Shown: in pieces, positions 3,863 to 48,488 of the stretch
How the letters are laid out: every line of letters begins with the position of its first letter
Position numbering within the stretch: the first letter of the stretch is position 1
Origin: Pontiella desulfatans
Lineage (GTDB): Bacteria > Verrucomicrobiota > Kiritimatiellia > Kiritimatiellales > Pontiellaceae
Assembly: GCF_900890425.1 (NCBI RefSeq)
Contig: NZ_CAAHFG010000001.1
Location: 2,480,001 to 2,544,000 of the forward strand
Reading direction: 5' to 3'
Length of the DNA: 64,000 nucleotides
Position numbers and translations under genes: made by a program
Notes under the pieces: model-generated
Told to the model about the DNA's origin: nothing
The model's database searches: none
Seen by the model: the letters and a program-made list of their open reading frames with translations, nothing else

Positions 3863-3868
3863 AGCATT

Positions 3869-3962
3869 AAGAACGCAGATTTAAGAATGAAGAACACTCC
3901 TGCCGACACCCGCTCATCCAGGCCATCTGCACACCCTTCTTCATCCTGAAATCTGAATTCTT
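3869..3962. repeat. Imperfect inverted repeat between accessory protein and symporter
   Basis: The left arm (3869-3894, AAGAACGCAGATTT...) and the right arm (3937-3962) are complementary at 22 of 26 positions by hand count, around a 42-base loop. In the transcript it would form a long hairpin between the two co-oriented genes. It resembles a short palindromic intergenic repeat; it could also tune relative expression of the two cistrons. Confidence 0.6.
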
Positions 3963-3980
3963 CATTAAAGGAGAAACCAC

Positions 3981-8096: not shown

Positions 8097-8179
8097 TCGT
8101 ATTACGTATTTCGTACTGCGTATTGCGGCTCTTCCACCAGAGGATCAGTGGAATACGTAATACGCAGTACGTAGTACTA
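8097..8179. repeat. Inverted repeat of the ACGTACTACGTATT family
   Basis: The left arm around 8097-8128 contains TACGTATTTCGTACTGCGTA; the right arm 8152-8179 contains, on the opposite strand, TAGTACTACGTACTGCGTAT. Together they form a hairpin filling the iorA-iorB gap. Related copies lie at 9792-9823 and 23997-24027. The right arm runs into the iorA stop codon. Confidence 0.65.
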
Positions 8180-16589: not shown

Positions 16590-16652
16590 TGACCGCAAAG
16601 ACGCGAAGGCACAAGGGAATCCCTTCTTTGCTTCTTAGCGTCTTCGCGGTCA
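16590..16652. repeat. Solo palindromic element between ACT gene and second ligase
   Basis: TGACCGCAAAGACGCGAAGG (from 16590) is inverted as CTTAGCGTCTTCGCGGTCA (ending 16652), giving a hairpin with a nearly complete stem. The arm sequence CCGCAAAG-CGCGAAGG is essentially that of the repeats flanking the GxxExxY gene at 22683 and 23125. Confidence 0.8.
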
Positions 16653-18922: not shown

Positions 18923-21358
18923 CTACTCCTCAACGACGATGCGCCAGAAGGTTTGCGGTGCTTCGCCAACCACACCCGTGTAGGTGTTTTCGGGAGGCGT
19001 CACCAGAATGTTGCTTTCCACCACATGGAAGCCTTCGAGCAAGTTCGTGGAGGCCTCCACGGAATAGCTGTTGTTGACGATGCTTGACCAGCTGATTTCA
19101 ACATCGCCGTTCCCCTGGACCGAGTAGCCTGTGATGGTCGGCGTTTCATCGACATCGAAGACATCGATGAGCCAGGGCAGCTCATACCAGAGCCCGGTGC
19201 TGTCGGTCGTCCGGATACGGATCGTCGGCGAGCTGGCCTGCTCGAAGTCCAGCATTTCCGCCGTAAAGAGCTGGTCGCCGGCAATCATGAACCGGTGGTT
19301 GTCGGCATCGCCCAGACCAGGCACGAGCGTATAGACAAAGGTGTCTCCCAGGTTTTCATCCTCGGACTGCAGCGTGCCGACCCACGTGCCCACGGGCGAA
19401 TTTTCCTCCACGAAACCGGCATCGACCGATAGCCCGTAAGGGGCCGAGTTCGAAGGTTCGGCGGTGCTCCACCATAGGTCGTAGCTGTTGCCGGCGGCAA
19501 CGCCGTATCCATACACCCGGACATAATAGTCGCCGGGAACCACTTCGGCATCGATCGATTCGGTATCGCCGGAAGAGGTTGAACTTTCAATCACCGCGGA
19601 GGCATCGTGAAGCTCAATATCAATATCCCCCGCCACATGGGTAAATTGGCATTCAACCAGGATGCGCTGCGTGGAACCGGTCACGGTAACCATGAACCAG
19701 TCATCGTCGAGCATCACGGCTTCCCCCAGCAGATCCGAGAGCCAGGCATCCTTGTTGTTCACCAACGAATAGGCCTCCGCCAAGGAATCATTCTCCTCGT
19801 AGGCATCATCGGTTTGCACCAGCGGCGCATCCAGGTCGTCCCACTTCAGGTCGTAGCTATTGCCGGCATCGCCATAATTCACGAGCAGGTAGTAGGTGCC
19901 CGGGGCCGGAACGCTCGTGGTGATCGACTCGTTGTCGTCTGTCGATGTGGACGAGTCCACCTCATAACCTCCGGAATCGAACAACACAAGGTCAATATCG
20001 CCCTCCGCATGGCTGAATACGCAGTCGGCCTGCACCCACAAAAAACCGGGAGTCACTTCGATTTCATACCAATCGTCATTGGCCTGGATCGCCGGGCCCT
20101 GGAGGGTTGAAAGCCAGGTGTTTTCCTGGGTAAAGGGATGGGCGCTTGATAGGGAGTCGTTCGCTTCATATTCGTCGTCCAACGGGATTGCGGCCGCCAT
20201 ATCGTCCCACCACAGATCGTAGGAGTTGTTTTTCACTAGTCCGCCCGCCCCATTCACGACAATGTGGTAGGTGCCCGCGGCGGTTACCGGGAAGAGGATA
20301 TATTCGTTGTCCGTCGCACTGGTTGCATTGGTCAGCAGTTGACCCAGCGTGCCGTACAGCGCGACATCCAGATCGCCTGCGGCGTTGGTGAACTGGCAAT
20401 CGACCTCGACATACGCCGTGCCGGGCGAAACCTCGATGGCATACCAATCCTGATCGAGTTGGATGCCACGGCCCTGAAAGGTGGAGAGCCAGGTCTTCTC
20501 CTTCGAAAAAGCAAAGGCACTCCCCTGATCGTCATTGGTTTCGTATTCATCATCATCCGTTCCAACCACGGCAAAGTCATCCCACCATAGGTCGTAGGCA
20601 TTGTCGGTGGCGCCGCCATAGCCAACCACTTGGATATAATAGGTGCCCGCGCCGGAGACGATCGCCGTAATACTCTCGTTGTCGGTTCCGGTTAAGGAGC
20701 TGGTGATCGGAGAACCTGCTGCATCGAGCAGATAGAGGTCGATGTCACCGTCGGCCTGGGAGAAAAGGCATTGTATCGAAACGGTTTCATATCCGGGCGA
20801 AACCTCGATCCGGAAATAATCCTCGTCGGCCTGCACGCCGGTGCCCAGCAGATCGGAAAGCCAGGTGCTCTCCGGCAACGGATACGCACTGGAAGTGTCA
20901 TCGTTGTTTTCATATTCATCATCTCCCGCCCCCGATGGAGCAGGCGCCAACGCCGACCACATGAGGTTGTAGGTGTTGCCGATGTCTGACGGGCCATATG
21001 GGAACACCTTGATATAGTAGGTCCCCGCCGCCGGCACGATGTAATCGATGGATTCATTGTCGTCAACTGATGCTGAAGATGCCAGCGGCGTGCCCGTGCC
21101 ATCAATCAGCTCCAGGTCGAGATCCCCCAGCCCGGAAAGGAAGAGGCAATCGACCGTCACCCGCTCATATCCAGCGGGCACAACAATCTCGAACCAATCA
21201 TCGTCCTCCGCGCTGCCGAGCCCAAGGAGGTCGCCCAACCACACATCCGGAGCCAGCACAAAGGCCTCGGCCAGGGTGTTGTTGGGTTCATAGGCATCGT
21301 CGGCAAAAACGCCGAAAGCCGCCATGAGAAAGAATAGGACACCACCAATTTTTTTCAT
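18923..21358 (-). CDS. Secreted protein with five PPC-like repeats
   Basis: An 811-residue protein starting at the ATG at 21358, which has a perfect AGGAGG. Residues 1-19 form a signal peptide. Five repeats of about 120 residues follow (roughly 20-150, 155-275, 280-400, 405-515, 520-645), each starting DDEYE-x-NDS, with WLSDLLG or LQG, DDWYEIEV-PG, GDIDLYLLD, DNESI, GTYYI-V and ending YDLWWDD, the pattern of bacterial pre-peptidase C-terminal (PPC) domains. A cadherin-like domain (VEENSPVGTWVGTL..) and a short C-terminal domain (SYSVEASTNLLEGF) complete it. No catalytic domain is visible, so it is probably a binding or adhesion protein at the surface. Confidence 0.85.
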   Translation of the reverse strand: MKKIGGVLFFLMAAFGVFADDAYEPNNTLAEAFVLAPDVWLGDLLGLGSAEDDDWFEIVVPAGYERVTVDCLFLSGLGDLDLELIDGTGTPLASSASVDDNESIDYIVPAAGTYYIKVFPYGPSDIGNTYNLMWSALAPAPSGAGDDEYENNDDTSSAYPLPESTWLSDLLGTGVQADEDYFRIEVSPGYETVSIQCLFSQADGDIDLYLLDAAGSPITSSLTGTDNESITAIVSGAGTYYIQVVGYGGATDNAYDLWWDDFAVVGTDDDEYETNDDQGSAFAFSKEKTWLSTFQGRGIQLDQDWYAIEVSPGTAYVEVDCQFTNAAGDLDVALYGTLGQLLTNATSATDNEYILFPVTAAGTYHIVVNGAGGLVKNNSYDLWWDDMAAAIPLDDEYEANDSLSSAHPFTQENTWLSTLQGPAIQANDDWYEIEVTPGFLWVQADCVFSHAEGDIDLVLFDSGGYEVDSSTSTDDNESITTSVPAPGTYYLLVNYGDAGNSYDLKWDDLDAPLVQTDDAYEENDSLAEAYSLVNNKDAWLSDLLGEAVMLDDDWFMVTVTGSTQRILVECQFTHVAGDIDIELHDASAVIESSTSSGDTESIDAEVVPGDYYVRVYGYGVAAGNSYDLWWSTAEPSNSAPYGLSVDAGFVEENSPVGTWVGTLQSEDENLGDTFVYTLVPGLGDADNHRFMIAGDQLFTAEMLDFEQASSPTIRIRTTDSTGLWYELPWLIDVFDVDETPTITGYSVQGNGDVEISWSSIVNNSYSVEASTNLLEGFHVVESNILVTPPENTYTGVVGEAPQTFWRIVVEE

Positions 21359-21496
21359 TGTTCCTCCTTGCCAAACGGCATGCTTAAGCACCGTTGCTAG
21401 AAACGACAACTTAGCAACGGCAACTGCGGAAGAAAAATAAAAACAACGTTAAAGATTCGTAAGCTTTAGGCTGACCGAGTGGTGGGCACGCCCACA

Positions 21497-22663
21497 TTAA
21501 TCCTCGGCAAAGGGCGAAAGCTCGCGTAGACGCCTGATGATCGGAGGCAGCTTTTCAAGGACATAGTCGATATCCTCATCCGTGTTGTAGCGGCTGAGGC
21601 TGAAGCGGATCGAGCCGTGCAGCATCGAGCGCGGCACGTCCATGGCCCGCAACACATGCGAGGGTTCCAACGACCCCGAGGCACAGGCCGAACCGGTCGA
21701 GGCACAGATGCCGATATCGTCGAGCATCAGCAGAATGGCTTCGCCCTCGACATATTCAAAACTAATGTTGCTCGTGTTGGGCAGTCGCTCCGTGCCCGCG
21801 CCATTCACACTGGCCCCCTTGCAGGTGGCGAGGATGCCGGCCTCCAGGCGGTCGCGTAGCTTGCGCTCGTGCATGGCATCCTTCTGCATCCGCTCCATGG
21901 CCAGCTCGCAGGCCGTTCCAAGCCCGACAATATACGGCACGTTTTCGGTGCCGGCGCGGCGGCCGCGCTCCTGGTGCCCCCCCATGATGTGCGGGGTGAT
22001 CTTGGTGCCGCGACGGGCATACAACGCCCCGATGCCTTTCGGCGCATGGAGCTTATGCCCCGAAATGGAGAGCAGGTCGATCGGCGTATCCTTGACGGAG
22101 ATCGGCAGTTTCCCGGCAATCTGAACCGCATCGGTGTGGAAGATGCCCCCGCCCTGCTTCACAATGCTGCCAATGGCCGGAACCGGGAAGATGACACCGG
22201 TCTCGTTGTTTGCCCACATGATGGAGGCAACGGTTTTTTTGCCGGATATTGAAAACTCGTGCACCTTGTTCAGGTCGAGGTTGCCCTTTTCATCCACTTC
22301 GAGCGTGGAGAGGCGGAAGCCTTTGTCTTCGAGATAGTGGCACGGGCCAAGGACTGCCGCGTGCTCCACCCGGGTCGTAATCAGGTGCGGATGCCCACCC
22401 ATGGCATCGACCGCACCGCGGATCGCCATGTTGTCGGATTCCGAACCGCAGCTCGTGAAAATGATTTCGTTGGGATGCTCGGCGCCAAGCAAGGCGGCCA
22501 CCTTTTCGCGCGCGGCGTCCAGCGCCTTCTTAACGCCGCCGCCGAAGGTATGCATGCTTGAAGGGTTCCCCCACTGCTCCGTGAAGTAAGGAAGCATCGC
22601 CTCCGTAACTTCCGGCGCAACGGCGGTGGTCGCATTGTTGTCTACATAAACTGAACTTTTCAT
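21497..22663 (-). CDS. nifS: Cysteine desulfurase NifS-type
   Basis: This 388-residue PLP enzyme removes sulfur from cysteine for Fe-S cluster assembly in the cytoplasm. YVDNNATTAVAPEV opens the protein; HTDAVQ is near 176-181, the PLP lysine is K204 in SGHKLHAPKG, and the persulfide cysteine is C327 in STGSACASG, in the short-loop context of the NifS/IscS class. Its partner nifU is upstream on the same strand but separated by the repeat-framed GxxExxY gene. The downstream user may include the Fe-S enzyme quinolinate synthase encoded just beyond nifU. Confidence 0.95.
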   Translation of the reverse strand: MKSSVYVDNNATTAVAPEVTEAMLPYFTEQWGNPSSMHTFGGGVKKALDAAREKVAALLGAEHPNEIIFTSCGSESDNMAIRGAVDAMGGHPHLITTRVEHAAVLGPCHYLEDKGFRLSTLEVDEKGNLDLNKVHEFSISGKKTVASIMWANNETGVIFPVPAIGSIVKQGGGIFHTDAVQIAGKLPISVKDTPIDLLSISGHKLHAPKGIGALYARRGTKITPHIMGGHQERGRRAGTENVPYIVGLGTACELAMERMQKDAMHERKLRDRLEAGILATCKGASVNGAGTERLPNTSNISFEYVEGEAILLMLDDIGICASTGSACASGSLEPSHVLRAMDVPRSMLHGSIRFSLSRYNTDEDIDYVLEKLPPIIRRLRELSPFAED

Positions 22664-22682: not shown

Positions 22683-22709
22683 TACAGAAGGCCGCAAAGG
22701 GCGCGAAGG
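22683..22709. repeat. Left inverted repeat framing the GxxExxY gene
   Basis: ACAGAAGGCCGCAAAGGGCG, continuing CGAAGG, matches the reverse complement of 23125-23151 at 23 of 27 positions by hand count. It starts 20 bp from the nifS start codon and ends 3 bp from the GxxExxY stop. Confidence 0.85.
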
Positions 22710-22712
22710 GGG

Positions 22713-23114
22713 TTATTGATCGGCTCCCTGCAGGATCATTCTTGAGATGCCGTTCTTGAGAATAGGTTCGTGATGATTGATTACCAACCCGAGAGGTATA
22801 TTCATTAACTTCATGTAAGCTAGCAACTTGGCTTTATGAGCAGGCATTACCACCTCAACGGACTTGAGTTCCAGAATTAGACAATCGTCTACAATGACAT
22901 CAAGCCGCAAGGGTTCTTCAAAGGCATAGCCTTTGTATTCAACAGGAACCACAACTTGATTCTTGGCAGGAATTCCCTGAAGTTCCAATTCCCTCATCAG
23001 GCATTTTTCATAGATTGCTTCGTATAAGCCACTACCCATTTCCTTATGAACCTCAAGCGCTGCTCCGATAACCTTGTAGCTGAGTGCATTTGCTTTTTCA
23101 TAAAGTGGGTGCAT
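22713..23114 (-). CDS. GxxExxY protein (PD-(D/E)XK nuclease-like)
   Basis: A 133-residue protein of the GxxExxY family: GSGLYEAIYEKCL at about 27-39 carries the name motif. RLDVIVDD...LELKS (D72, then E82-x-K84) has the D-(x)n-ExK spacing of PD-(D/E)XK nucleases, and LLAYMKLMNIPLGLVINH (about 97-114) fits the later conserved helix and strand. The biological role of the family is not settled. The gene is visibly AT-richer than its neighbours and is packed between inverted repeats only 3 and 10 bp from its ends, in the middle of the nifU-nifS operon. This suggests it arrived with, or depends on, that element. Confidence 0.88.
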   Translation of the reverse strand: MHPLYEKANALSYKVIGAALEVHKEMGSGLYEAIYEKCLMRELELQGIPAKNQVVVPVEYKGYAFEEPLRLDVIVDDCLILELKSVEVVMPAHKAKLLAYMKLMNIPLGLVINHHEPILKNGISRMILQGADQ

Positions 23115-23124
23115 TGCGGATCTT

Positions 23125-23151
23125 CCTTCGCGTCCTTTGCGATCTTCTGTT
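23125..23151. repeat. Right inverted repeat framing the GxxExxY gene
   Basis: CCTTCGCGTCCTTTGCGATC, continuing TTCTGTT, is the inverted partner of 22683-22709. It lies 10 bp before the GxxExxY start and 8 bp after the nifU stop codon. Confidence 0.85.
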
Positions 23152-23158
23152 GTAAAAA

Positions 23159-23989
23159 CTAAACCGCTTCCACAACGATGTCGTCGGAGATGGCTTCGCG
23201 GAGCTGGGTTTCGACCACATCCTTCAGCGTAACGGACGAGACCGGGCAGCTGACGCAGGCGCCGACAAACTTGACCAGCACATGGTCGCCGTCGACATCG
23301 TGCAGTTCGAGATCGCCCCCGTCGCGGCGCAGGATCGGGCGGACTTGCCGGTCGATCGTCTCCTCAATGAGTTTAATCTTCTGGAGCTGGGTGAGCCTGG
23401 GCCTCTCTTCAGTCTTGGCTTTTTCCTCCCCTATCACGCGGTTGATGATTTCCTCGATCTCGGGAATGCACTGGCCGCACCCACCGCCGGCCTTGCAGGC
23501 GTTGGTGACCTCTTCCGCAGTGGTCAGGTTTTGTTCGCGCGCCACCTTCTCGATTTCCTTGTCCGTTGCCCCGAAGCAGTGGCAGACCACCTCGCCATCG
23601 ATCTTGCGGTCGAGGGTCTTGCCGGTGCGGTAGTTGTAGATCGCGGCTTCGAGAGCCTCGCGGCCCATCACGGAACAGTGCACCTTTTGCTTCGGCAGAT
23701 CGCCGAGATATTCGATGATCTCCTTGTTGGTGATCTGTTCGGCCTCTTCGATCGTCTTGCCGATCAGCATTACGGTGAGCGCCGAGGAAGAGGCAATCGC
23801 ACTGGCGCAACCAAACGTCTGGAACTTGGCCTCGCAAATCTTCTTTTCACCGTCGAGCTTGAAGGTCAGCCGCAACGCGTCGCCGCAGGCCAGCGAACCG
23901 GCCAGGCCATCGCCATCGGGGTTTTCCACCGCGCCGACATTGCGCGGGTTCTTGAAATGATCGTTAACCTTGTCCGTGTATTCCCACAT
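23159..23989 (-). CDS. nifU: Fe-S cluster scaffold NifU
   Basis: A 276-residue protein with the full three-part NifU design. An IscU-like N domain has Cys35, Cys61 and Cys105. A BFD-like [2Fe-2S] domain has Cys136, Cys138, Cys171 and Cys174 (CHCFG...CGQC). A C-terminal NifU domain has CVSC at 245-248. It would assemble clusters from sulfur supplied by NifS. Full-length NifU is found in nitrogen fixers but also as a general system in epsilonproteobacteria and PVC anaerobes; no nif structural genes are seen here. It probably forms an operon with nifS. Confidence 0.95.
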   Translation of the reverse strand: MWEYTDKVNDHFKNPRNVGAVENPDGDGLAGSLACGDALRLTFKLDGEKKICEAKFQTFGCASAIASSSALTVMLIGKTIEEAEQITNKEIIEYLGDLPKQKVHCSVMGREALEAAIYNYRTGKTLDRKIDGEVVCHCFGATDKEIEKVAREQNLTTAEEVTNACKAGGGCGQCIPEIEEIINRVIGEEKAKTEERPRLTQLQKIKLIEETIDRQVRPILRRDGGDLELHDVDGDHVLVKFVGACVSCPVSSVTLKDVVETQLREAISDDIVVEAV

Positions 23990-46015: not shown

Positions 46016-46063
46016 GATTCCTGCCTTCTTATTACTGAACTAAACCAATCGGTATTGATTTGC

Positions 46064-46141
46064 ACAGGACTATTGATAACAGGACTATTCGACAGCCCAT
46101 GATCGTGATTTTAAAAATAGTCCTTTTCTCAATCGTCCTGT
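46064..46141. repeat. Inverted repeat between ppx and ppk1
   Basis: ACAGGACTATTGATAACAGG (from 46064 to 46089 with ACTATT) is inverted at 46116-46141 with about 22 of 26 positions matching, around a 26-base loop. The motif AGGACTATT is also repeated directly inside the left arm. It fills most of the ppx-ppk gap. Confidence 0.7.
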
Positions 46142-46176
46142 GAACTTCTTCGCACAAAGCCGCGCAAGCATTCATA

Positions 46177-47751: not shown

Positions 47752-48488
47752 AGTTGATCCTCGAAAGCTCAAGATACGATACGCGCCGCGCCAAGGAAAC
47801 GCAATCCATGTTAGCGTTTCGTTAGGGAAGCGAGACCTCGACGCGAAAAAAGGCCGAGGTGGTTGCTCGCGGTCGAGACGTGAAGCGCATTCGATTTCAA
47901 TGCCGACCGAATTGGTGTCGGCGGCGGATCTTCATCGATATTGCTCCATTGCTGGTAGAGCTTTTATGTTGCAGTTATACTGACGGCCGTCAGCATAACT
48001 GCAACATCTGTGGGTTCTTTTCCCGCTTAGGTGAAACAAAACGGCGCGGAGCAGCGTTCCTCGGCCGACGCCGGTAGACGCGAATGCCGCGTGCCCGGCG
48101 ACGTGCGTTTCGTGGTTGAAAGTTGCGCTTTGCCTAGAACGATACCTGAAGAGGGTCTGCGCACGGTTCGCACCTCCGTGAAGAACCGGTTTTTTTTCTG
48201 TCGAACGGAATCCCGGCAGACGGGAACTCGCATCGGATATGCGAGCTACGGCTTGGCATCGGCTGCCGAAGGCCTTTTGTTTCAAGCGCAGCCCAGGAAA
48301 AAACCTAGTTTCTTTTCGTTTGAAGCATGCAAGGCTTATTTCGACTCTGTTGGACCCTCCACTGCGTCTGCAACCGAAATCAGCCGAAGGACGCCATGGA
48401 GGTTGCCAAATCCTGCATTCCATGGCTAATGTTTCTTGAAACCATCCGCCCACTGGATAAACTGTGCGCTTTGATTTCTGGGAGACGT
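47752..48488. other. Long intergenic region between ppx and mutS
   Basis: About 740 bases with no coding region I can support. It contains the 42-bp palindrome at 47966-48007, GC-rich segments of no clear structure, and presumably divergent promoters. A frame open from 48327 leads into mutS but lacks family similarity before 48489. Confidence 0.6.
47966..48007. repeat. 42-bp near-perfect palindrome
   Basis: ATGTTGCAGTTAT and ATAACTGCAACAT surround CTGACGGCCGTCAG, itself palindromic; only one base pair (A against C) is unpaired. With no loop it looks more like a binding site for a dimeric regulator or a cruciform than a terminator. It lies between divergent ppx and mutS. Confidence 0.85.

Follow-up and report, generated by a model that had tools for sequence, protein, structure and literature searches.

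A GxxExxY nuclease-like gene between inverted word arrays in a nifU-nifS operon: a probable counterpart of REP/RAYT elements

The closest described systems are the REP and REPIN repeats with their RAYT genes (Nunvar 2010, PMC2817692; Bertels and Rainey 2011, PMC3116915), where the repeats are reported to be abundant in accordance with the presence of their cognate gene. In the 2009 annotation of Geobacter metallireducens, paired tandem arrays were taken, in the part of the text available, as possible sites of a global regulator of the IHF/HU type and put into class 2 (PMC2700814). Intervening sequences of 23S rRNA make a third group, and in Coxiella heptameric repeats stand ahead of the S23p ORF (PMC4990558).

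The element described here lies in a stretch of 64,000 nucleotides of Pontiella desulfatans DNA, the whole of which is called the window. It is about 470 bp long and comprises one gene, predicted to encode a PD-(D/E)XK nuclease, between two head-to-head arrays of short words. With the REP/RAYT systems, as portrayed in the available portions of PMC2817692 and PMC3116915, it shares a small gene between two inverted repeats, coevolution of repeat and protein, many gene-less copies and an intergenic placement. Nevertheless, the GxxExxY protein is a PD-(D/E)XK nuclease where RAYT is a Y1/HUH tyrosine transposase, and its repeat is built from 7-nt words in tandem, separated by free linkers, where REP is a GTAG-tagged stem-loop. 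The class 2 sites of G. metallireducens are similar in having three tandem copies of TCTCCGTS(Y) in opposite-strand pairs at a variable distance, the other strand giving a CACGGAG word, however the available text reports them as regulatory and without a linked gene family (PMC2700814). The intervening sequences likewise have a small ORF between inverted ends with heptameric repeats before it (PMC4990558), and four-helix-bundle genes located elsewhere have tandem-word arms, but the protein is different, the stem of an intervening sequence is nearly fully complementary, and the window element is inserted between nifU and nifS instead of in 23S rRNA. In the library of papers searched, none connects GxxExxY genes with such arrays, although this absence is no proof of novelty. 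The reading proposed below would give a concrete role to a widespread and unexplained family of small proteins, and would account for many intergenic tandem-word hairpins, some of which have been annotated as regulatory sites.

The nifU-nifS locus and its protein

The features of the locus are as follows.
21497..22663, minus strand: nifS-like cysteine desulfurase gene, the downstream neighbour on the same strand, used as an anchor in the locus comparison
22684..22709, plus strand: 3' arm, inverted, ACAGAAG-gc-CGCAAAG-gg-CGCGAAG-g (ACAGAAG 22684-22690, CGCAAAG 22693-22699, CGCGAAG 22702-22708)
22713..23114, minus strand: gene of the GxxExxY protein, 133 aa, predicted PD-(D/E)XK fold (TIGR04256 and PF13366 matches, structure model, covariation)
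23125..23150, minus strand: 5' arm in gene orientation, ACAGAAG-at-CGCAAAG-ga-CGCGAAG-g, three words with a 9-nt period (ACAGAAG 23144-23150, CGCAAAG 23135-23141, CGCGAAG 23126-23132)
23159..23989, minus strand: nifU-like gene, the upstream neighbour on the same strand, recovered in relatives

The first-pass annotation had placed the arms 3 and 10 bp outside the ORF, 20 bp from the start of nifS (22663) and 8 bp from the stop of nifU (23159), and had called the ORF AT-richer than its surroundings; these distances were reproduced, and the G+C content is 0.44 against 0.56 for the locus. The arms are indeed inverted, however their length was given as 27 bases with 23 of 27 matched, and alignment yields 26 nt with 88% complementarity. 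The own-arm score of the element (37) exceeds every cross-locus pairing (rank 0 of 53). Beside nifS, an 828-aa ORF at window positions 18923-21409 contains several similar repeats (DDEYE.ND... DDWYEIEV).

The protein is a full-length member of both families that it matches, TIGR04256 (E 1e-37, 129 bits, cut-off 35) and PF13366 or PDDEXK_3 (E 4.4e-36, 124.2 bits, cut-off 22). As only the PDDEXK_3 and GxxExxY profiles match, it does not belong with the Y1/HUH tyrosine transposases. The structure model is confident (pLDDT 94.5), and the closest folds are those of Cas4 SSO0001 (Foldseek E 1.1e-3, Z 8.9) and lambda exonuclease (E 1.1e-2), with restriction-enzyme folds lower in the list of matches. 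The first GxxExxY alignment shows no variation at E32, Y35, D72, E82, K84, Y100 and N113, and the nuclease motifs noticed at first reading, D72 and E82-x-K84, hold across the family, these catalytic residues being unchanged in 48 of 48 aligned proteins. The D...ExK motif together with the core fold of the model points to a PD-(D/E)XK protein. Within the family Q96 is nearly invariant and Y100 invariant. The pattern of D, ExK and Q..Y recalls Cas4 and lambda exonuclease, to whose folds the model is closest; nevertheless, the window protein has just 133 aa and is flanked by word arrays, and no Cas- or Red-type partner genes were recognised at the nifU-nifS locus. The QxxxY motif of the RecB/Cas4 type is absent from the window protein, and because lysine replaces the nearly invariant Gln96 in this copy as well as in its orthologue in genome G016, the catalytic state of the window copy is uncertain. 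In a separate subfamily (L010, L349, L352, L359) the C-terminal part is longer, with open frames of about 264-284 aa and a weak second match to the domain, and the words are of the AACGAATG type.

Word arrays around GxxExxY genes

The suspected link of GxxExxY genes to flanking inverted repeats was studied with a motif-free test, in which the upstream flank of each locus was aligned to reverse-complemented downstream flanks, both its own and those of the other loci, the threshold being the cross-locus 95th percentile. It was exceeded by 41 of 43 GxxExxY loci in the first set and by 137 of 180 in a larger one, against 1 of 144 neighbouring ORFs, and the link is thus strongly supported. Related and distant genes alike are mostly flanked (own genome 12/13, relatives 56/68, the phylum 21/25, other phyla 48/74). 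Among the named loci clear arms were seen at 9 of 10 in Planctomycetota, 18 of 20 in Pseudomonadota and 9 of 20 in Bacteroidota, and in further groups too; they are missing at some GxxExxY loci, notably at 11 of the 20 from Bacteroidota. The first family alignment was too diverse for the collection scan, which was redone with closer sequences. The source genome holds 14-15 GxxExxY paralogues, most with arms of their own that differ in sequence from one to another. Nor are such structures a random coincidence: 464 kb of the source genome contain 36 short hairpins, of which 31 have tandem words, whereas shuffling the sequence leaves 0-1.

Each arm consists of 2-4 copies of a 7-nt word at a spacing of 8-11 nt, with the consensus CRCnRAK (for example CACAGAG, CGCAAAG, CACGAAG, CACTAAT, CGCAGAT). 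Positions 2, 5 and 7 of the word agree within an element at 0.93, 0.87 and 0.99, and between elements at 0.54, 0.52 and 0.72; within an element, agreement is lower at position 4 (0.64) and in the linker (0.42). For 11 CACTAAT elements, each arm of which has three exact words, the agreement between facing linkers is 0.23, as compared with 0.37 for random linkers. Because the linkers are free to this degree, what is conserved is the set of words, and neither a stem nor a terminal repeat that has been copied. The pattern of words and linkers suggests protein-binding sites about one helical turn apart. The gene-less hairpins had at first been called MITE-like relics, but the arms are arrays of short predicted protein-binding words, with linkers that mismatch between arms, and do not resemble the terminal repeats of a MITE; a DDE/IS-type transposon or MITE was rejected for the same mismatch and for the lack of a target-site duplication signal, none being found above the cross-locus background.

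The free linkers also bear on a possible role in RNA, where the arms would form a stem in the operon transcript and the unit would be cut out like the 23S rRNA intervening sequences with their S23p/four-helix-bundle ORFs. It fits that the genes are co-directional within operons, that four-helix-bundle genes also come with arrays, and that heptameric repeats precede the S23p ORF in Coxiella (PMC4990558). However, random linkers match more often than those that a stem would bring face to face, on which ground selection for an RNA stem was rejected, words and not the stem are conserved, and single unpaired arrays occur; such a role is therefore regarded as highly improbable.

The position of the elements is characteristic. 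Of the 93 elements that have a close neighbour on each side, 71 are enclosed by co-directional genes and share their direction, and 1 is directed against two such genes (p 3e-20), the median gaps to the neighbours being 5 and 10 bp. The simplest reading is that these elements, occupying stop-start gaps in operons, are probably expressed by read-through.

Covariation of a protein residue with the word

Ser12 of the window protein lies in helix 1 of the model, directly ahead of the xKIIGAA stretch, and its alignment column covaries with position 5 of the word. Throughout the 142 elements, Thr in this column goes with G in 65 cases and with A in 0, whereas the other residues go with G in 14 and with A in 63 (Fisher 6e-27). 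The prediction that Thr implies G and other residues mostly A was fixed before 60 new loci were fetched; words could be called in 26 new elements, where Thr was found with G in 10 of 10 and non-Thr with A in 14 of 16 (Fisher 1.2e-5). The rule is valid within both the ...AG and the ...AT word clades, and the window copy, with Ser12 and words having A at position 5 (CGCAAAG, CGCGAAG), fits it.

Close relatives share both protein and word, as would also be expected if protein and arms were associated merely by descent, with no recognition. Against this, about 25 changes at position 5 are counted along the protein tree and the residue in the Ser12 column changes with them, and the linkers of the same arms are not kept; co-inheritance is for that reason given hardly any credence. 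The 25 independent pairs give 17.5 for the association of Thr with G and 0 against, which is by far the best of all columns; they were taken from a tree built without the covarying columns and over all branches of the best tree, because the protein tree (117 columns) is poorly supported and its 5 starred-branch pairs were too few to test. For position 2 no clear determinant was found among the alignment columns, and for position 7 there was no clean one, since that position changes once on the tree and any column of that clade fits. It is thus strongly supported, by comparison of sequences, that the GxxExxY protein recognises its words. If it both reads and cuts them, the family would be one of compact (~130 aa) sequence-specific nucleases, with natural variation that shows the pairing of residue and base.

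Gene-less arrays, site histories and mobility

The similar arms that had been noticed as solo hairpins in the window are four in number.
3866..3965, unstranded: solo array pair, words of about period 7/8 in AATGAAGAA/CAGATTT style, no gene assigned
8098..8177, unstranded: solo array pair, period-7 words TATTACG/TATTGCG in the style of the four-helix-bundle gene L052
16590..16652, unstranded: solo array pair, CGCAAAG/CGCGAAG type; junction empty in eight related species, other words in three
46063..46142, unstranded: solo array pair, ACAGGACTATT type, with the words of the arms of GxxExxY copy L014

They are present as described, but the words are not all those of the window element: the pairs at 3866 and 8098 have the four-helix-bundle style, and that at 46063 belongs with another GxxExxY copy, L014, its type having about ten dispersed copies in the source genome.

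Double words of each type were counted across 66 genomes, and those of a given type are commonest in genomes where a gene with the same word was found. CACTAAT reaches 10-56 copies in gene-bearing genomes against a median of 0 (p 2e-5), and in the top CACTAAT genome, G156 with 104 copies, a CACTAAT-flanked gene was found once more genes had been fetched. For CGCAGAT the top four genomes (225, 65, 20 and 15 copies) all carry such a gene (p 3e-5), and for CACGAAT the association of solo arrays with the cognate gene has p 7e-4. With swapped words no significant excess was seen in the same genome sets, and the reversed pattern gave 0-1 matches per strand in each genome. Removal of the elements' own arms made the result weaker, yet it was kept (p 3e-5, 0.007 and 0.013 in the CACTAAT, CGCAGAT and CACGAAT tests). 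Since the gene lists of other genomes were fetched non-exhaustively, the test is conservative. GxxExxY elements thus have both a gene between two inverted repeats and cognate gene-less repeats dispersed in the genome, as in the REP/RAYT type. Pairing is not general: in genome G045 many gene-less arrays are single three-word arms (L321, L403-L422) that start with GATCCGCAGAT and are not inverted pairs, and the expectation that all were paired was dropped, most of those fetched being single three-word arrays. Where solo arrays lie with respect to genes could be scored only crudely, as spurious ORFs overlap the arrays.

At the junction of the solo pair 16590-16652, classified by eye, four species have four different solo arrays and eight are empty, with stop and start codons that overlap or nearly touch; the site of 46063-46142 is short or empty in several relatives. 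The nifU-nifS loci of relatives were compared for empty sites, as had been recommended. The element is present in three species, including orthologues in G016 and G013 (similar proteins, same strand, same arm type), apparent end remnants only are left in two (G012, G006), four have nothing, and other word arrays stand there in three. Presence is therefore polymorphic with clean empty sites, as in a mobile element. G045 has an intact unit flanked by two shortened copies, in which both arms and the beginning of the gene are retained and most of the gene is missing; such copies could have come from transposition or from tandem duplication. The idea of a small mobile element with relics is borne out by the gene-less copies, the empty sites and the internally deleted copies, but not for the nifU-nifS copy as a recent insertion: given the orthologues in G016 and G013 and the remnants in G012 and G006, it is old, conserved and vertically inherited, while solo arrays turn over between species. 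No dS could be estimated for the nifU-nifS orthologues, hence they are given without a dN/dS value. Mobility of GxxExxY elements is likely, however no recent burst was caught, because none of the 13 other paralogues exceeds 53% identity with the window protein and the copies are mostly old.

A selfish gene of homing or restriction type could produce junctions like these, its nuclease cutting foreign DNA or junctions that lack the element, with the arrays as marks or protection of the resident locus. In its favour are a nuclease fold that is nearest to Cas4 and lambda exonuclease, restriction enzymes following lower in the list, and the fact that the same operon junctions hold different elements in different species. 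Yet the junctions of insertion have no single conserved target sequence, and hundreds of gene-less arrays would need a separate explanation, so that it appears very improbable. Unlikely, though less so, is a regulator or chromosome organiser, which would read the words, with the solo arrays as its sites, the flanking arrays serving autoregulation and mobility being incidental. Conserved words, free linkers and covariation suit any specific DNA binder, and the TCTCCGTS(Y) arrays, in three tandem copies and opposite-strand pairs, have been described as sites predicted to serve a global regulator (PMC2700814, in the available text). On the other hand, the catalytic residues D72, E82 and K84 do not vary among the 48 aligned proteins, the same junction differs between close species and is empty in others, the arrays are located in stop-start gaps within operons and not at promoters, and the unit as a whole also occurs in internally deleted form.

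The GxxExxY element is on balance best taken as a REP/RAYT-like selfish element, probably with a PD-(D/E)XK protein that reads its own arrays. The encoded protein would recognise its words directly in double-stranded DNA, positions 2, 5 and 7 of CRCnRAK being the element-specific part, and the residue in the Ser12 column would help to read position 5, Thr selecting G, and Ser, Ala or Gly usually A. Cognate gene-less arrays would be further targets, and the protein, presumably through nuclease activity on the arrays, would spread or maintain both the gene and the solo arrays, much as RAYT transposases are thought to serve REP/REPIN repeats. That the nuclease itself causes the spreading is plausible; confidence in nuclease-driven mobility is moderate, mainly because genes for a non-nuclease four-helix-bundle protein have a similar architecture.

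These genes (PF05635, 23S_rRNA_IVP; L045-L052, L148-L177), although outside rRNA, have inverted arrays, for example of GATGCTT, TATTGCG or AGGAGTC. The layout is the same, with words of period 7-8, and 30 of 36 exceed the cross-locus 95th percentile, which argues that the layout needs no nuclease and that something shared could move both classes. It may be, and this is put forward tentatively at somewhat under even chances, that GxxExxY elements represent a bacteria-wide kind of selfish DNA, in which a lone PD-(D/E)XK nuclease mobilises the element and reads arrays of 7-nt words by a simple residue-to-base code, the four-helix-bundle genes forming a second class that follows the same plan with an unrelated protein. 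The shared layout is also relevant to the question, still unsolved, of where 23S rRNA intervening sequences come from.

Several minor observations were made. Two four-helix-bundle genes about 7 kb apart (L051, L053, L054, L057; G000:C1 ~918.8-919.4 kb and 926.1-926.7 kb) are apparently split at the same profile position (~50) by a GIY-YIG nuclease-like ORF. Loop-less palindromes with arms meeting at ACGG/CCGT (several TGACGG), which are not word arrays, recur at positions 47966-48007 of the window and in the loci L071 (14185-14228), L064 (17205-17242) and L077 (3278-3317). Inverted repeats of GGGGC type (TTGTGTTGCCCC, ACAATTTAGCCCGGGGC) are clustered in one stretch at L076 10726-12012 (G000:C4 ~1,090.7-1,092.0 kb).
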